Shown one piece after another: positions 243-7,999 of a stretch of DNA of 55,048 nt. Origin of the DNA: Clostridium sp. (GTDB lineage: Bacteria > Bacillota > Clostridia > Clostridiales > Clostridiaceae); NCBI RefSeq assembly GCF_030532265.1, contig NZ_JAUNLM010000005.1:7910-62957 (forward strand). Reading direction: 5' to 3'. The first letter of the stretch is position 1. Every line of letters starts with the position of its first letter. The notes beneath the pieces were generated by a model that made no database searches, was not told where the DNA came from, and saw nothing but the letters and a program-made list of their open reading frames with translations. A program made the position numbers and the translations under genes.

Positions 243-560
243 TTATTTTTCTAATTTTCCATTATAATTTCCTGTTCCACCTGAAACGTTTATTATTTTA
301 TATCCTTTTCTCTCTAAAAAATCACAAGTTCTACTGCTTCTTACTCCTGACTGACATATTATATAATACTCTTTATCTTTAGTTAAATATTTTTCAGGTT
401 GGTTAACTATATTTTCCATAGGTATGTTTTTTGCATTAGGTAAATGTCCATTATTAAATTCATATGGTTCTCTAATATCTATTAAATTTATATTTACTAA
501 TTTATCTTTTAAATCATTCACTTTTACTGAATTATATTTTTTATCTAAAAATGAAAACAT
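243..560 (-). CDS. Single-domain rhodanese-like sulfurtransferase
   Basis: The product is about 105 residues and is a single rhodanese domain. The family signature IDIREPYEFNNGHLPNAKNI lies near the N-terminus, and the active-site loop CQSGVRS, with the catalytic Cys followed by a short loop, lies near residue 70. Family members move sulfane sulfur between thiols or thiolate acceptors in the cytoplasm. The ATG at 558-560 is preferred because GAGAGGAGGAAG precedes it at good spacing; the frame stays open upstream for 17 more codons without a ribosome-binding site. It lies about 70 nt downstream of mgtA on the same strand with no terminator seen between them, so it may be transcribed with the Mg2+ pump. 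A functional link to Mg2+ is not evident. Confidence 0.88.
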   Translation of the reverse strand: MFSFLDKKYNSVKVNDLKDKLVNINLIDIREPYEFNNGHLPNAKNIPMENIVNQPEKYLTKDKEYYIICQSGVRSSRTCDFLERKGYKIINVSGGTGNYNGKLEK

Positions 561-631
561 AATCTTCCTCCTCTCTTTTAATAATTTTATTTTTATATAA
601 TTATTATACACTTATATTATTAATCTATATA

Positions 632-3331
632 TTATAATAATTTCCCATATTTTTTTATATAAATTTTCTTAATAACATTTACTAAAATCATATAAGATAA
701 TATTGTTAAAGTTAAATATATAAAATATACTCCCGGCATTGGTTTCATATCTAAAATTTCTCCAAATGAAGTATATGGAATAATTGTTCCAATTAATATT
801 GCAAGTCCTGTAAATAAAAATACTGAACTTGAAGCTCTACTTTGAATAAATGGAATTTTTGGTGTTCTTATCATGTGTATTACTAAAGTTTGTGTCCATA
901 GTGATTCTACAAACCAGCCCGCATTAAATACTGCTAAAAATACTACATTATTAACTCCTGAAGCTCCATAATGTCCACCTGCTACAATCGGGCATATTAT
1001 AAAATATAAAATTGCATAAGTTGTTATATCAAATATTGAACTTGTTGGTCCAAACCATACCATGAAACTTCCAATTGATGAGGCATCCCATTTACGTGGT
1101 CTTTTCAAATATTCCATATCAACCCTATCCCATGGAACTGCTATGCATGAAATATCATATATAAGATTTAATACTAATATTTGAATTGGTAGCATTGGTA
1201 AAAATGGTAAAAACGCACTTGCAACTAATACACTAAACATATTTCCGAAATTAGAACTTGCTGTCATTTTTATATATTTTATTATATTAGCGAAAGTTTT
1301 ACGTCCCTCAACAACACCTTTTCCAAGTACCATAAGGTTCTTTTCTAAAAGAATTATATCTGCTGATTCTTTTGCTATATCTACTGCTGTATCTACTGAA
1401 ATACTAACATCTGCTTTTTTCATTGCAGGAGCATCATTTATACCGTCTCCCATAAATCCAACAACATGTCCATCATCTCTTAATACTGATACAATTCTTG
1501 CTTTTTGACTTGGTGATAATTTTGCAAAAACATTTGTATGTCTAACAATTTTTTTTAGCTCTTCATCTTTCATATCTTCAATTTCTGAACCTAATAATAT
1601 ATTTTTAACATTTATACCAACTTGACTACATACATATTTAGTTACTTTTTCATTATCTCCAGTTAATACTTTAACTTCTACTCCATAATCATGTAAAAAT
1701 TCTATAGCATCCTTTGATGACTCCTTTGGTGGGTCTAGAAAACTTATATACCCCATAAGAACCATATCACTTTCATCTTTCACTGAAAAACTACCTTCTG
1801 GTGATGGATTATTTTTTTGTGATACTGCAACTACTCTCATACCATTTGTATTAAGTTTACTAACAGTTTCTAATATTTCTTTTCTTAATTCCTCTGTTAA
1901 CTCTACAATTTCATCATTATATTCTGCATAAGAAGATATTTCTAGCATTTCTTCAACTGCACCTTTTGTTATTAATTGAGTTTTTCCATTTTGGTCCTGT
2001 AAAACAACAGACATTCTTCTACGTGAAAAATCAAAAGGAATTTCATCTACTTTTTTATATTTTTCACTTAAATTAGAAAATCCTTCTTTATCTCCATATT
2101 GAAGTATAGCAACATCAAGTAAATTTTTAAGTCCTGTTTGAAAGTAACTATTTAAATAACCATGCTTAAGTACTCTAATATCTTCATTTCCATGTATATC
2201 AAGATGATTTTCTAAAACTATTTTATCTTCTGTAAGTGTTCCTGTCTTATCAGTACAAAGTATATCCATAGCCCCAAAGTTTTGTATTGAATTTAAGTTT
2301 TTAACTATTGTTTTATACTTTGACATTTTTACAGCACCCTTTGCAAGGTTTGTTGTAACTATCATTGGAAGCATTTCTGGAGTCAATCCAACTGCTACTG
2401 ATAACGCAAATAGAAATGCTTGTAACCAGTCACCTTTTGTAATTCCATTAATAACAAATACTACGGGAACCATAATCGCCATAAATCTTATTAATAAAAA
2501 GCTTACTGAATTTACTCCTTTATCAAAGCTTGTCATTTCTTTCTTTTCTGTTATAACATTTGCCATACTACCAATTACTGTATTATTACCTGTACTTAAT
2601 ACAATTCCTATAGCAGTACCACTTATAACATTAGTTCCCATAAACGCTAAATTTTCTAATTCAAAAGTACTTTTTATATCTTTTCCCTTAGTTTCTTGTG
2701 ATAGATCTCCATACTTTTCTACGGCCTCTGATTCTCCAGTCATTGCTGATTCACTTATAAATAAATCTTTTGCAAAAATAATTCTTATATCTGCAGGAAT
2801 CATATCTCCCGCATTTAGCTTTACTACATCTCCCTTAACTATTTCATCCATAGGAATTTCAATATCTTTACCACCTCTAATAACAGTTGCTGTTGTTTCA
2901 ATCATTTCTTTAAGTTTCTCACCAGCTTTATTAGATTTTCCTTCTTGGAAAATACGTAAAATACCACTAATCGTTACCATTACTAAAATTATAATAACAG
3001 TAGTTAAATCTTTATCTTTTGGAGCTGGAATAACGTAATCAGTAAAAAATGATACTATTGCTAATAATATTAATACTAATGAAAAAGGATTTATAAAAGC
3101 ATCAAAAAGTCTTTTATACCATGTTATTCCTTCTCCGTAACTAATCTTATTGTAACCATATTCTTCAATTCTTCTTTCAGCTTCTTCTTTTTCCAAACCT
3201 TCTATTTTTGTATTTAATTTTTTAAAAAATTCTTCTTTCTCTAATAATCCAAATTCAATTAATTTTTTATTTATTTCTTCTCTTCTTAAATTAACTTTAT
3301 TATTTGAAAAATCTTTTCTTAAAATTTTCAT
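632..3331 (-). CDS. mgtA: Magnesium-translocating P-type ATPase
   Basis: This 899-residue protein matches the usual MgtA/MgtB length and order: an N-terminal cation-ATPase domain, an actuator domain with TGES ([14 protein letters not shown]), an ion-path helix with [10 protein letters not shown], the phosphorylation loop [10 protein letters not shown], a nucleotide-binding domain, the hinge [14 protein letters not shown], and a C-terminal bundle of membrane helices. The VGLTPEMLP motif is typical of the Mg2+-importing P3B group rather than of Ca2+ or heavy-metal pumps. It should sit in the cytoplasmic membrane and import Mg2+ using ATP. The ATG is preceded by AAGGAGGG. The gene has an unusually long leader (about 500 nt) with an M-box riboswitch, a terminator, a putative leader ORF and a second terminator, so expression is probably tuned to Mg2+ by premature termination at two successive points. 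Confidence 0.96.
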
Positions 3332-3374
3332 GTTAAAACCCTCCTTACTTTTTAATAGTAATGAGAATTAGGCA

Positions 3375-3410
3375 TAAAAAAACCTGTCAACTAAAGCTTT
3401 AGTAGACAGG
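3375..3410 (-). terminator. Second, mgtA-proximal attenuator terminator
   Basis: The stem CCTGTC-aa-CTAAAG pairs with CTTTAG-ta-GACAGG as an interrupted 12-bp helix, followed on the minus strand by a run of seven T. It ends about 45 nt before the mgtA start. Its 5' arm (minus-strand CCTGTC, 3410-3405) also belongs to GTGCCTGTC (3413-3405), which can pair with GATGGGCAC (3529-3521) upstream. The terminator and that long-range helix are therefore mutually exclusive. Confidence 0.85.
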
Positions 3411-3427
3411 CACTTAATTTTAAGTCT

Positions 3428-3559
3428 CTATATTTTCAGGCAAAACAAATAAACCAGATACTGGCTTCGTATTTTTGATATATTATTTATGTTTTGCTTA
3501 ATTAAATATAGGCTTCTCAGGTGCCCATCAATTCCCAAAATACTACTTGCAGTTTCCAA
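3428..3559 (-). CDS. Putative 43-residue leader ORF in the mgtA leader
   Basis: This open frame starts at TTG (3559) and ends at TAG (3428-3430). It begins METASSILGIDGHLRS and ends YLVYLFCLKI. A good Shine-Dalgarno GAGGTG (3573-3568) lies 8 nt before the TTG, and an in-frame stop lies just upstream, so TTG is the only usable start. It sits between the M-box terminator and the second terminator. Codons 11-13 (GAT GGG CAC) are exactly the strand that can pair with the 5' arm of that terminator, so translation would decide which hairpin forms. Three CTG codons are unusual for this AT-rich genome. I recognise no homologue. It could be a regulatory peptide whose sequence matters, a counter-free ribosome switch, or a chance frame over a structured RNA. 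Confidence 0.5.
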   Translation of the reverse strand: METASSILGIDGHLRSLYLIKQNINNISKIRSQYLVYLFCLKI

Positions 3560-3603
3560 TTTATTTTCACCTCACTTATTTATTAAAATTATTAGTAATT
3601 TAA

Positions 3604-3648
3604 AAAATAAAAAAATCCTTGTTAAAATCTTAAAAGCAGAACAAGGAT
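3604..3648 (-). terminator. M-box riboswitch terminator
   Basis: ATCCTTGTT (minus strand, 3648-3640) pairs with AACAAGGAT (3623-3615) around a loop, followed on the minus strand by a long T-rich run. It lies directly 3' of the M-box and is the expected expression platform: high Mg2+ should favour this hairpin and stop transcription before mgtA. Confidence 0.8.
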
Positions 3649-3846: not shown

Positions 3847-3875
3847 ATTGTAGTAATGAAACTTAATTTAGTCAA
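3847..3875 (-). promoter_or_regulatory. Promoter of the mgtA leader
   Basis: On the minus strand TTGACT (3875-3870) and TACAAT (3852-3847) are separated by exactly 17 nt, a near-consensus vegetative promoter. Transcription would begin about 7 nt further on, close to the 5' end of the M-box. Confidence 0.75.
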
Positions 3876-4111: not shown

Positions 4112-4798
4112 TTGAATATTTTAGTAGTTGATGATGAAATTAGTATATTACAACTTATAAAAATGAACTTAGAATTACAAAATTATAATGTTATTACAGC
4201 AACATGTGGAAATGAAGCTTTAGACCTTACTATAAAACATAAACCTGACATAATAATTTTAGATGCTATGCTTCCTGATATAAGTGGTTTTGAACTTATT
4301 AATAAAATTAAATTAATTAAAGATGTACCTATAATTATGCTTACAGCTAAAGACGATATTAACGATAAAATTTTAGGGTTTAGACTTGGTGCAGAAGATT
4401 ATATTACTAAACCATTTAACAGTACGGAATTGTTACTTAGGGTAAAAGTTATCTCCAAACGATTAGAAAAAACCTCTGAAGAAAAACCAACTTTACTTTC
4501 CTTTGGAAATCTTAAAATAAACCCTATTGAAAGAAAGGTTTCTATAGATTCTAATTATGTAGATTTAACATTTAAAGAATTTGAAGTTTTACTTTGTCTT
4601 GCTGAAAATAAAGGTAGAGTATTTAGTCGTGAAGATTTATTAAATAAAATATGGGGATATGATTTTGAAGGAACAACTAGAGCTGTAGACATTTTAATTC
4701 AAAGGCTTAGAAAAAAATTAGGCTCTTGTCAAAAATATATAAAAACTTTATATAAAGCAGGTTACAAATTTGATATTGAAGATGAATCTAACTCTTAA
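4112..4798 (+). CDS. OmpR/PhoB-family response regulator
   Basis: This 228-residue two-domain regulator has a receiver domain at about 1-118 with the acidic pocket VVDDE, the phospho-acceptor Asp in ILDAMLPDISG, the conserved Thr in IIMLTAK and the Lys in ITKPF. A C-terminal winged helix at about 130-225 ends with the family pattern TTRAVDILIQRLRKKLG and KTLYKAGYKF. The start is TTG at 4112, supported by AGAAGGAG at the right spacing; there is no nearby ATG. Its 3' end overlaps the sensor kinase gene, so the two are translationally coupled. From context it probably controls the organophosphate antiporter about 3.3 kb downstream. Its target DNA site is not identifiable by eye. Confidence 0.95.
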   Translation: MNILVVDDEISILQLIKMNLELQNYNVITATCGNEALDLTIKHKPDIIILDAMLPDISGFELINKIKLIKDVPIIMLTAKDDINDKILGFRLGAEDYITKPFNSTELLLRVKVISKRLEKTSEEKPTLLSFGNLKINPIERKVSIDSNYVDLTFKEFEVLLCLAENKGRVFSREDLLNKIWGYDFEGTTRAVDILIQRLRKKLGSCQKYIKTLYKAGYKFDIEDESNS

Positions 4799-6167
4799 AC
4801 AAAAAATAATTTTAACTAATATATCAATTTTAATACCTATTATAGCTTTTATATATATAATAACCTTCAATACCCTTTCAGAAAATTTATTAGATAACTC
4901 TCTTAAATACTTACTTAAAGAAAATACAACTATGGGGGCATACATAGAAAACTTATTAGAATCAAACAAAAATCCAAATAAAGAAGAGGTTTTTAAATCA
5001 CTTTCTCCATTTATTGCTACAAATTTAAGTAACAGGTTTGACACAAGAGTTCAGATAATAAGTAATTCAGGACAAATATTTTATGATTCTGATAAAAAAC
5101 AATTAAGCCTTTATAATTTAGATATAGATAAAGCATTAGAAGGTTCAGAAGCTTACATAATAAAAAAAATTGATGGTGTTCCCTACATATTTTTGTCTAC
5201 ACCAATTTTTTATAATAATATTAACTGTGGTGTATTAAGACTTATACTTAAAAATGATTCTTACGGAAGCATATTGAATAATACCCTATTAATAATGATT
5301 TTAGTTAGTATCATTTCATTAGGTATAGGTATAATTTTAATATATAACTTTTCAAAAGAATTAGTAACACCATTACTTATGTTAAAGGATAAAACACATG
5401 AAATTGCTAATGGTAATTTTGGTGAAACAATAGAAATCAAAAGTGGAGATGAAGTAGAAGATTTAGCAAATACCTTTAATATAATGAGTAAAAATATAGA
5501 TGTTTATATTAAAGAACTTAAGTCTGCAAAAATTAAACAAAAAAAATTCTTTGACAATATATCTCATGAATTCAAAACCCCTTTAACTGCAATAATTGGT
5601 TTTTCAGAAATAATACCAAAGTTATCAGATAAAGAAAAAGTTATACATAGCTCTTCCCTTATTGAAAAAGAAGGAAGAAGATTATTATCTTTAGTTGAAG
5701 AAATATTAACCATATCAAAAGGAAATAAAGAAAATTTTTCAATTGAATCAACTTATATAGATATAAAATCTTTAATTGATGAATGCTTGTCTATTTTAAG
5801 TGTAAATCTTCAAAAATATCATATTCAAGTAATAAAAAATTACGATAACCTTTTTATATACGGCGATTATGATAAAACAAAACAAGTATTTATAAACATA
5901 TTAATTAATTCAATAAAATATAGCGGATGTGAGTATATAAAAATATCCTCAAAAAACCTTAATGATAGAATAGAAATTTATATATCAGATGACGGAATAG
6001 GATTTGATATAAATAATATGTCAAATATAAACAATATAAAAGGAAACGGTTTTGGGCTTAATATATGCAAAGAAATTTTATCTACTCAAAATGGAAGTTT
6101 TAAAATTGAAAGTATTTTAGATGAAGGTACAACTGCAACATTAACATTTTTTAAACAAAGGAAATAG
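4782..6167 (+). CDS. Membrane sensor histidine kinase
   Basis: About 461 residues. A first membrane helix (residues ~10-30) and a second (~165-190) bracket an extracytoplasmic sensor region of about 130 residues. Then come a HAMP linker (EIANGNFGETIEIKSGDE), a HisKA dimerisation domain with the phospho-acceptor His in FFDNISHEFKTPL, and an ATPase domain with N box FINILINSIKYSG, G1 box DDGIGFD and G2 box GNGFGLNICKEIL. It should phosphorylate the regulator encoded just upstream. The ATG at 4782 lies inside the regulator gene (17-nt overlap); an in-frame TTG at 4770 is an alternative start. The anchored binding protein encoded two genes downstream is a likely extracytoplasmic partner for signal input, by analogy with the HptA-HptS and PgtC-PgtB arrangements. 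Confidence 0.93.
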   Translation: MNLTLKQKIILTNISILIPIIAFIYIITFNTLSENLLDNSLKYLLKENTTMGAYIENLLESNKNPNKEEVFKSLSPFIATNLSNRFDTRVQIISNSGQIFYDSDKKQLSLYNLDIDKALEGSEAYIIKKIDGVPYIFLSTPIFYNNINCGVLRLILKNDSYGSILNNTLLIMILVSIISLGIGIILIYNFSKELVTPLLMLKDKTHEIANGNFGETIEIKSGDEVEDLANTFNIMSKNIDVYIKELKSAKIKQKKFFDNISHEFKTPLTAIIGFSEIIPKLSDKEKVIHSSSLIEKEGRRLLSLVEEILTISKGNKENFSIESTYIDIKSLIDECLSILSVNLQKYHIQVIKNYDNLFIYGDYDKTKQVFINILINSIKYSGCEYIKISSKNLNDRIEIYISDDGIGFDINNMSNINNIKGNGFGLNICKEILSTQNGSFKIESILDEGTTATLTFFKQRK

Positions 6168-6195: not shown

Positions 6196-6984
6196 ATGAA
6201 TAAGAATTTTAAAAATATTATTGTATTATATATAGCTTTTATAATTTTAATTTTATCTTTTTTACTTTATTCAACAAAAGCAATTTATAATAACTTAACT
6301 ATTATAGATAGTTCTAGTTTTAATAAAAAAAGTTTTTCAACTAAATTTCCAACAAAAATAATAATACATAATGACTACTTAGGCACTACTACTTCAACTG
6401 ATAATTTACTTATGAATGATACAGTTCAATATTTCAATGACATAAAATCTTCAAAAATGTCTAAAGAGAATAAAATTAAAAATACTAACACCATAACAAT
6501 ATCAGGTGAAATATTTTACTCAAACGGCACTTCCGAAAAGTATAAAGTAAATAATCACCTAACCATTGACAATAAGAAATTTTATGATGATTCATATTTG
6601 ATTAATACTCTTAGAAACAGCTTATTTAATAACTTATATACTTATCCAAACATATTAAATATATTAAAATCTAATAAAACAAAAATTATTTATGAAAAAG
6701 AAAACTTATCTTACACGCTTAATAATGAGAAAAAAAAGAAGCTAATAGAATGTTTAAATAAATTTAGTACTATGAAAGATAATAAAGATTTTTTAAATAC
6801 TAATCTTAATGAGGATTCAAAAGGTGTTTTAAAAATTTTTATAAATGGTTTAAACACTATTAATGCAAATAATACAATATACATTGCTATATATAAAAAT
6901 TATTTAGCAATTCAATATTTAGGCGATGAAAATGGTAAAAATATTTATATTAAAGGTGAACTAAATGAAAAAGATTTTAAATAA
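6196..6984 (+). CDS. Membrane-anchored protein of unknown function in sensory operon
   Basis: A 262-residue protein with a single N-terminal hydrophobic helix (residues ~8-27) and a hydrophilic, Asn/Lys-rich remainder expected outside the membrane. There is no lipobox. I recognise no enzyme motif; it may fall in a clostridial DUF family (DUF3919 is my best guess, not verified). AAAGGA precedes the ATG. It lies 28 nt after the kinase gene, and its 3' end overlaps the binding-protein gene by 20 nt, so it is almost surely co-translated with the sensory genes. A role as an accessory to signal perception or as a small extracytoplasmic scaffold is inference from position only. Confidence 0.75.
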   Translation: MNKNFKNIIVLYIAFIILILSFLLYSTKAIYNNLTIIDSSSFNKKSFSTKFPTKIIIHNDYLGTTTSTDNLLMNDTVQYFNDIKSSKMSKENKIKNTNTITISGEIFYSNGTSEKYKVNNHLTIDNKKFYDDSYLINTLRNSLFNNLYTYPNILNILKSNKTKIIYEKENLSYTLNNEKKKKLIECLNKFSTMKDNKDFLNTNLNEDSKGVLKIFINGLNTINANNTIYIAIYKNYLAIQYLGDENGKNIYIKGELNEKDFK

Positions 6985-7999
6985 AAAAGTCATAATTATC
7001 TTTTTTATATTAATATCAATTATTTTTATTATCTTTGCCTTTAAAAATAAAGATAATAAAAAGGATAAATTGAATCTAAAAGGAAAACATTTAACAGTTT
7101 ATGTAGCAATGAGAGAAGAAGAAGCTATATCACTTTTAGAAAAATTTAAAAAAGAAACTGGCTGTACATATGAATTTATAAAACTCCCTACCGAAGAAGC
7201 TGTTAATAAAATATTAGCTGAAAAAGGAAAATCAAGTGGTGATATATTTATAGGAGGAAGTTGTGATGCCTATGAAGTTTTAAAGTCACATGGAGCTTTA
7301 GCAAAATATAAATCACCAAACTCTAATGATATACAAGCAAAATACAAAGATCCAGATAGCTACTGGACTGGATTTCAAGTTGATGTATTAGCAATAGGAA
7401 TAAATAAAAAAATATGGGATAAGGATTTTAAAAGTAAAGGAATTTCACTTCCTAAAACCTTTGATGATTTACTACAAAAAGAATATAAAGGAAAAATAAT
7501 AATGCCTAATCCTGAAACCTCAGGTACTGGTTATACATTTTTAGCTTCTTTATATCAAGAGTTAGGTAAAGATAAATATAAAGAATATTTATCCAAATTC
7601 ACAGAAAATGTACCTGCCTATACTGTAAGTGGTTTTAATTCAATTCAAAGAGTCTCATCTGGTGAATATGCAGTTACAGTAAACTTTTTAGGAGATCAAC
7701 TTCTTCAAAGTAAATTTAACAAAGATATAATAAGCATAGTTCCTAAAAACACTGGTTGGAATGTAGATTCTATAGCAGAACTTAAAAACTGTGTAAATAA
7801 AGAAGCAGCAGAAAGCTTTATAGATTTTATATTATCTCAAGAAGTTGCTAATAATTTATCTAACTATTCAAAGGCTACCTCAACAAAACAAGCCAATAAT
7901 AACATATATAATACTATATTTTTAGATTACGATTTCAACAAAGCAGCTATGAATCGTGACGAAATTATGAATATATTTAACAAAAATGTATATAAATAA
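6965..7999 (+). CDS. Anchored ferric-type extracellular binding protein, probable sensor partner
   Basis: This 344-residue protein has an N-terminal membrane helix (residues ~8-26) with no lipobox Cys, then a periplasmic-binding-protein fold of the Fe3+/phosphonate (SfuA/AfuA, HptA/PgtC) type: LTVYVAMREEEAISLLEKFK, DIFIGGS, YWTGFQVDVLAIGIN, PNPETSGTGYTFLA and the late helix AESFIDFILSQEVANNL. No ABC permease or ATPase gene is adjacent. Instead it is encoded with a two-component system and upstream of an organophosphate antiporter, as in the staphylococcal hexose-phosphate and Salmonella phosphoglycerate systems. I therefore infer a ligand-sensing rather than a transport role. The ligand (hexose phosphate, glycerol-3-phosphate, phosphoglycerate or free phosphate ester) cannot be told from sequence. 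Confidence 0.88.
   Translation: MKKILNKKVIIIFFILISIIFIIFAFKNKDNKKDKLNLKGKHLTVYVAMREEEAISLLEKFKKETGCTYEFIKLPTEEAVNKILAEKGKSSGDIFIGGSCDAYEVLKSHGALAKYKSPNSNDIQAKYKDPDSYWTGFQVDVLAIGINKKIWDKDFKSKGISLPKTFDDLLQKEYKGKIIMPNPETSGTGYTFLASLYQELGKDKYKEYLSKFTENVPAYTVSGFNSIQRVSSGEYAVTVNFLGDQLLQSKFNKDIISIVPKNTGWNVDSIAELKNCVNKEAAESFIDFILSQEVANNLSNYSKATSTKQANNNIYNTIFLDYDFNKAAMNRDEIMNIFNKNVYK

Follow-up and report, generated by a model that had tools for sequence, protein, structure and literature searches.

A proposed ribosome-based checkpoint behind the M-box of a Clostridium mgtA gene and its counterparts in related Mg2+ transporter leaders

Mg2+-responsive leaders and the layout of the mgtA locus

The M-box is the textbook RNA-only sensor of Mg2+. 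Leaders that destabilise the ribosome are known in Enterobacteria, and upstream ORFs (uORFs) behind an M-box are known in M. tuberculosis. In E. coli and Salmonella, the leader peptide MgtL carries an acidic N-terminus (EPDP, with Glu2 and Asp4), and early ribosome dissociation permits transcription of mgtA, according to the accessible text of PMC11282234. For mgtQ, located between mgtC and mgtB in Salmonella, the accessible text of PMC8092293 describes how Asp2 and Glu5 lower mgtQ translation, and how this lowered translation frees the mgtB ribosome site via alternative stem-loops. At the pe20 locus of M. tuberculosis an M-box is followed by uORFs and acts on their translation together with Rho, and masking of a Rho site by uORF1 translation is discussed (PMC12810186, accessible part). 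A search of the open-access literature, a scope that leaves most subscription papers outside, returned no account of acidic leader peptides in Clostridia and none that links such peptides to M-boxes. By word search, the accessible text of one structured-RNA survey (PMC8632094) mentions neither the M-box nor mgtE nor Mg2+, and that of another (PMC11109978) holds one mgtE motif, confined to Thioalkalivibrio.

The locus considered here lies on the minus strand of the window, by which we mean the whole stretch of DNA that was analysed (55,048 nucleotides from Clostridium sp.). A candidate promoter, TTGACT-17-TACAAT (3847..3875), put forward on its match to the consensus at 10 of 12 positions, precedes an M-box Mg2+ riboswitch aptamer (RF00380, 3657..3816) that scores 94.4 bits against a gathering score of 44 and spans the covariance model from end to end (positions 1-169). 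A terminator stands directly 3' of the aptamer and a Mg2+ transporter gene follows downstream, as expected of an M-box riboswitch. This M-box terminator (3601..3648), recognised by reading the sequence, consists of ATCCTTGTT (3648-3640), AACAAGGAT (3623-3615) and a T-run, and counterparts were seen by eye in relatives. Next come a Shine-Dalgarno (SD) sequence, GAGGTG (3568..3573), conserved across a clade of five genomes, and a mechanically called small ORF (sORF) of 43 codons (3428..3559) that begins METASSILGIDGHLRSLYLIKQ, with a TTG start at 3559 and its stop at 3428. Between the sORF and mgtA lies a second intrinsic terminator, CCTGTC...GACAGG with a T-run (3376..3410, -14.8 kcal/mol). The mgtA gene itself (632..3331) encodes a P-type Mg2+ ATPase with the Pfam domains E1-E2_ATPase, Cation_ATPase_N and Cation_ATPase_C. 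A sequence-only reading of this leader had proposed a translated attenuator stacked on the M-box, and its feature positions and both of its nine-base segments agree with the sequence and the ORF list.

A simple terminator scan listed neither the M-box terminator nor the second terminator, which we ascribe to the large loop of one and the mismatched stem of the other; it did list a terminator-like site inside the sORF (3467-3451). Two other candidates were considered and rejected: a second known riboswitch in 3600-3375, where seven non-M-box Rfam matches at E up to 5 all fell far below gathering scores, and a mobile inverted repeat, as clear homologues sit in the leaders of close relatives and other DNA matches are short. 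The surroundings, as judged by eye, comprise a small rhodanese-like protein directly downstream of mgtA (243-611, minus strand), a response regulator with a sensor kinase divergent from mgtA (4112-6167, plus strand) and, after this pair, a solute-binding protein (6965-7999).

Like MgtL and MgtQ, the sORF is short, has an SD of its own and sits ahead of a Mg2+ transporter gene, and it shares with MgtL its place upstream of mgtA and an acidic start. The likeness to MgtL is confined to this N-terminal pattern, with one early acidic residue in the window's peptide. The MgtL terminator is Rho-dependent, whereas the Clostridium leader combines an intrinsic terminator with SD masking, and the accessible text mentions no M-box for MgtL, whereas here one lies upstream (PMC11282234). 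On the accessible account, mgtQ is the nearest match to the SD-masking Clostridium leaders, but it has 8 codons, is intergenic and does not stand behind an M-box as the Clostridium sORF does. The pe20 locus does have uORFs after an M-box, but neither an acidic leader peptide nor ribosome-driven intrinsic antitermination is described in the accessible part of PMC12810186.

Competing pairings in the mgtA leaders of five genomes

Codons 11-13 of the sORF (GATGGGCAC, 3529-3521) can pair with GTGCCTGTC (3413-3405) at nine of nine positions, including two G-U pairs, as the sequence-only reading had claimed. Upon folding, this helix forms the base of a long imperfect hairpin (3405..3529), the proposed antiterminator: the fold of 3560-3405 reaches -33.8 kcal/mol (z -2.1), equalled by 2 of 200 shuffles. 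The fold of 3600-3375 has a z of -1.9, equalled by 11 of 200 shuffles, and its best structure is the second terminator, with the nine-base helix absent. The complete arrangement recurs in four relatives (G024, G035, G018 and G065). When the RNA ends at the terminator 5' arm, all five leaders adopt the antiterminator fold (-33.6 to -35.7 kcal/mol); when it ends at the mgtA SD, the best folds of all five contain the terminator, with the inner stem largely retained. The terminator can thus coexist with the inner part of the long hairpin, and only the nine-base helix competes with it. This helix is worth -12.5, -10.4, -9.5, -8.1 and -10.6 kcal/mol, and the second terminator -14.8, -15.7, -11.3, -16.9 and -16.6 kcal/mol, in the window, G024, G035, G018 and G065, respectively. 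As in the MgtL and MgtQ systems, mutually exclusive pairings involving the ORF are possible, with the full-length fold on the side of the terminator. The antiterminator would consequently have to act by timing, probably only through its partner being made first.

The same stretch of the sORF has a second partner, which the sequence-only reading missed. The switch segment, codons 8-13 (TTGGGAATTGATGGGCAC, 3521..3538), may base-pair either to the terminator 5' arm or to a post-terminator segment, TGCCTAATTCTCAT (3361..3374), to which it is complementary and which lies partly within a weak hairpin around the mgtA SD (3339..3369; SD AAGGAGGG, 3346-3339). Across the five leaders, in the same order, this pairing amounts to -14.1, -15.7, -11.0, -17.0 and -15.5 kcal/mol and in every case exceeds the nine-base helix by itself, while the SD hairpin, which includes the post-terminator segment, reaches -6.3 kcal/mol in the window and -4.5 to -6.9 kcal/mol in the relatives. 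In four of the five full-length folds, G035 being the exception, the post-terminator pairing is present at least in part alongside the terminator. Because this second partner lies partly in the mgtA SD hairpin, the switch may act on both transcription and mgtA translation.

The frame is conserved where these pairings lie. The window and its four relatives share the SD, a TTG or GTG start codon and an unbroken frame over the first 15 codons (METASSILGIDGHLR, METGSSHLGIDGHLR, METGSSCMGIDGHLR, MEAGGSFMGIDGHLR and MEAGSSFMGIDGHLR), as the attenuator proposal expected. Further on the expectation fails, as there is one base more after codon 15 in G018 and in G065, and the second halves of the window's and the G024 sORFs diverge in frame; thus the frameshifts that had been named as grounds for refutation do exist, only behind the switch codons. 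As to synonymous bias, dS exceeds dN over codons 2-16 in 7 of 10 clade pairs, with the reverse in 3 of 10 and very few changes altogether, and the excess of third-position changes is slight in codons 2-13 (0.39 vs 0.33) and absent later in the sORF. Covariation of the nine-base helix is thin as well. A single event, a clean double change from G-C to T-A at helix position 6 in G035, turns codon 12 from GGG to GGT silently and is matched in the 5' and the 3' arm of the terminator, and G035 also lacks pairs 1-3 of the helix. With arms picked by hand, since the 3' arms misalign in the clade alignment, cognate segments form 9, 8, 6, 7 and 8 of 9 pairs across the five genomes; the sORFs of three of the four relatives pair better with the window's arm than with their own, and only in G035 and the window itself do cognate segments outdo swapped ones.

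Acidic small ORFs behind M-boxes of the order and the class

A DNA search found only the four clear relatives and a partial match to the leader in G025, and therefore a comparison anchored on M-boxes was used. A search with MgtA yielded 13 related loci, of which one, from Clostridium sp. Ade.TY, is close; otherwise these served only as a background of 72 SD-bearing long ORFs. The order set comprises 166 leaders: the window's own, 55 from the genus, 30 with M-boxes below 115 bits and 80 with high-scoring M-boxes, the last drawn from a longer list. L125, at a contig end, is left out of the genus set, a sub-threshold second M-box in G023 is not separated, and L128, L129 and L021 are replaced by L154, L146 and L143. 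Outside the order, 29 of 30 loci were used from 79 genomes with a match (L264 was already present), and complete loci behind SAM (26 of 30; 4 incomplete) and TPP (27 of 30; 3 incomplete) riboswitches were taken for comparison.

Most M-boxes examined in the order have a similar sORF behind them. In 150 of the 166 leaders the first frame with an SD is an sORF, 12-60 codons long; in 13 it is a long gene, and 3 have none. Of the 150 sORFs, 142 have Asp or Glu at residue 2; related species in these counts are not independent, and among distinct strings of the first eight residues the fraction is 110/118. This count takes the first frame strictly, and some of the eight non-acidic frames lie in or near an acidic sORF; a looser scan, to which the shuffled counts below do not apply, places an acidic sORF in 150/166 leaders and none in 16/166. 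Five dinucleotide-shuffled sets gave 31-39 sORFs and 2-8 acidic ones per 166, and the reverse strand of the 166 leaders gave 5 and 0. SAM leaders hold 2 sORFs in 26 and TPP leaders 1 in 27, with 1 acidic among all 53, and residue 2 is acidic in 13 of the 72 long ORFs. Outside the order, an sORF comes first in 15/29 leaders (11/29 when shuffled), a long gene in 12 and neither in 2; here the motif M[DE]x[DG]P alone stands out (11 of the 15 sORFs vs 0 shuffled). Scanned a second time, the two sets together yielded 164 sORFs whose residue 2 is acidic, from 139 genomes, and 61 M[DE]x[DG]P sORFs, from 59 genomes; MDSDPYS, MEADPSN, MESGPYGGR, MDCDPDSN and MDDPDTDS are examples of the N-termini. The earlier interpretation is partly supported: its core, a translated attenuator stacked on the M-box, is strongly backed by this wider family. 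The earlier statement that the peptide is unrelated to MgtL does not hold so simply, as residue 2 is acidic throughout most of the family and the M[DE]x[DG]P pattern is frequent. The pair of acidic residues seen in MgtL and MgtQ (2 and 4, or 2 and 5) is not present in the first 13 residues of the window's peptide (METASSILGIDGH), and many relatives pass a looser test (acidic residue 2 with D/E/G at 4 or D/E at 3, 116/166 order leaders).

Codon usage bears on whether the frame matters at all. The second terminator might answer Mg2+ or another ligand by folding, the frame being incidental, and the high nucleotide conservation of the switch region and the use of AGT as codon 6 in 39 of 42 SS-type sORFs would suit this. 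Such an explanation would leave unexplained why the SD, the start and the acidic residue 2 occur together in 142/166 leaders while the third base of codon 2 is free (GAA 61, GAT 37, GAG 23 and GAC 21), although the 'GA' at codon 2 could partly reflect RNA pairing. Among the 61 M[DE]x[DG]P sORFs residue 2 is drawn from four codons and residue 4 from six, and the proline at residue 5 is CCT in 51. As the M-box is, moreover, the sole Rfam family that reaches its gathering score in the window, we consider a device of RNA alone unlikely.

The M-boxes of these leaders occur in roughly two forms, of about 90-115 bits and about 125-155 bits, the former commoner before mgtA and the latter before mgtE as judged by eye, and the sORFs of the two forms differ in the codons that pair. 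In five leaders (L075, L080, L084, L152 and L157) the start of the sORF (AAGAGGAATGGA or AAAAAGAATGGA) is complementary, by eye, to its own 3' end (CATTCCTCTT, CCATTCTTTTT and similar), which might block re-initiation after drop-off. The L077 leader (G015) carries a stretch of about 75-80 bases in tandem repeat between sORF and mgtA, and in L088 (G023) the M-box is followed by a sub-threshold second M-box match (42.2 bits) and an mgtA fragment, which looks like a decayed copy.

Downstream genes were classed by the top tblastn hit among ten representative genes, all of which come from behind these same leaders, and Mg2+ importers are the commonest. The acidic sORF precedes MgtA in 44/44 leaders, MgtE in 31/32, PRC-barrel MgtE in 65/67, Nramp in 3/4, CorA in 2/3, an ABC permease in 4/12, a cation-efflux gene in 0/1 and unassigned genes in 1/3. 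A natural control is given by the 8 of 12 M-boxes before an L173-like ABC permease (BPD_transp_1) that have no acidic sORF (L117, L124, L173, L178, L180, L203, L216 and L238). The very wide occurrence of sORFs beside Mg2+ importers might also be expected if they encoded a working small protein with an effect in trans on the transporter, a reading that we regard as very improbable: the frame is lost beyond about codon 15 even in the five-genome clade, sORF lengths run from 12 to 60 codons, the conserved codons also serve as pairing partners, and the 43 residues of the window's sORF have no Pfam match at E 0.001. Among the 23 genomes of the genus with no M-box match, G063 (locus L270, the one read out of 25 loci) keeps before mgtA a similar acidic sORF, MEEGSSKVIN..., and the SD-masking complement, with a promoter-like sequence upstream by eye. 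The peptide module may thus stand alone.

The N-termini also bear on what would stop the ribosome. Poor initiation, stalling at Gly-Pro or Asp-Pro, or limiting elongation factors might trigger a ribosome-based attenuator in place of Mg2+-dependent drop-off; 41 of the 118 distinct N-termini have proline at residue 5, and the first 13 residues of the window's peptide are acidic only at Glu2 and Asp11. An acidic residue 2 is the more general feature (110/118), however, and the genes downstream are most commonly Mg2+ importers, and we consider such a trigger rather unlikely.

For the position of pairing within sORFs, 15-base sORF windows were tested against the real downstream leader and against shuffled versions; 137/166 leaders passed the filter, 114 of them differed in their first 10 residues, and the analysis covers 105. 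In 57 leaders with a short M-box (span at most 163 bases), the class to which the window belongs, complementarity peaks at codons 8-12 (mean Z -2.15). The other 48 give no signal for windows starting at codons 1-10 and peak at codons 20-24 (mean Z -1.75), and the sORF SD region gives a weaker signal in both classes (-1.05 overall). For codons 6-14, the best partner could be scored in 49 of the 57 leaders, and it has a further complement closer to the main gene (mean z -1.12, vs -0.33 for random segments); the window's own leader is unremarkable in its pairing of sORF codons with a downstream partner (z -1.4). The alternative partner is often the SD and start of the main gene, imitated by the sORF codons, as in G079 with GTAAGATTATAGATCC, then GGATCTATGTCTTAC, then GGTAAGACTATG. 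Within the short class, the pairing platform changes by lineage and the position in the sORF is constant.

A probable checkpoint in series with the riboswitch

We consider it probable that a ribosome-based checkpoint, in series after the M-box, controls mgtA. At high Mg2+ the M-box would halt transcription upstream of the sORF. Once RNA polymerase has passed the M-box, a ribosome would start on the sORF, and translation past about codon 13 would leave those codons unpaired, so that the second terminator forms and the mgtA SD is open to masking in transcripts that read through; both would keep mgtA off. Early failure of translation, or no start, would leave codons 8-13 free to pair downstream, first with the emerging terminator 5' arm before its 3' arm exists and next with the SD-masking segment, and mgtA would be on. 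The conserved acidic N-terminus would supply the trigger by early ribosome drop-off at low Mg2+, as reported for MgtL and MgtQ, and in the short class, whose pairing codons closely follow the acidic N-terminus, a ribosome aborting there would leave them free. For the leader group as a whole we give drop-off as the trigger an even chance; for the window's peptide, with only Glu2 and Asp11, it is the weakest step and we propose it only tentatively. Expression upon aborted sORF translation is the direction that a Mg2+ importer needs, and it is also that described for MgtL and MgtQ (PMC11282234, PMC8092293). It is the comparison among leaders that points to a dependence on translation.

In attenuators of the trp and ilv type, the position of the ribosome selects between antiterminator and terminator, and completed translation terminates. 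An untranslated trp leader terminates, whereas an untranslated Clostridium leader would be expected to read through. An amino-acid attenuator of this type was considered and rejected, as no run of regulatory codons was seen by eye in the sORF peptides.

If a translated checkpoint routinely follows the M-box in Clostridia, the regulation there of importers such as MgtA and MgtE has so far been read incompletely. The evidence is evenly poised on a class-wide sensor of this kind, in which MgtL-like acidic peptides, encoded after most M-boxes that precede Mg2+ importers, would switch lineage-specific terminators or SD-masking hairpins. If true, distant phyla would use the ribosome's own need for Mg2+ as a sensor, in series with a riboswitch and, in the one case of G063, apparently alone. 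The many natural variants of the acidic N-terminus would then make the rules of ribosome destabilisation outside E. coli testable with simple reporters.
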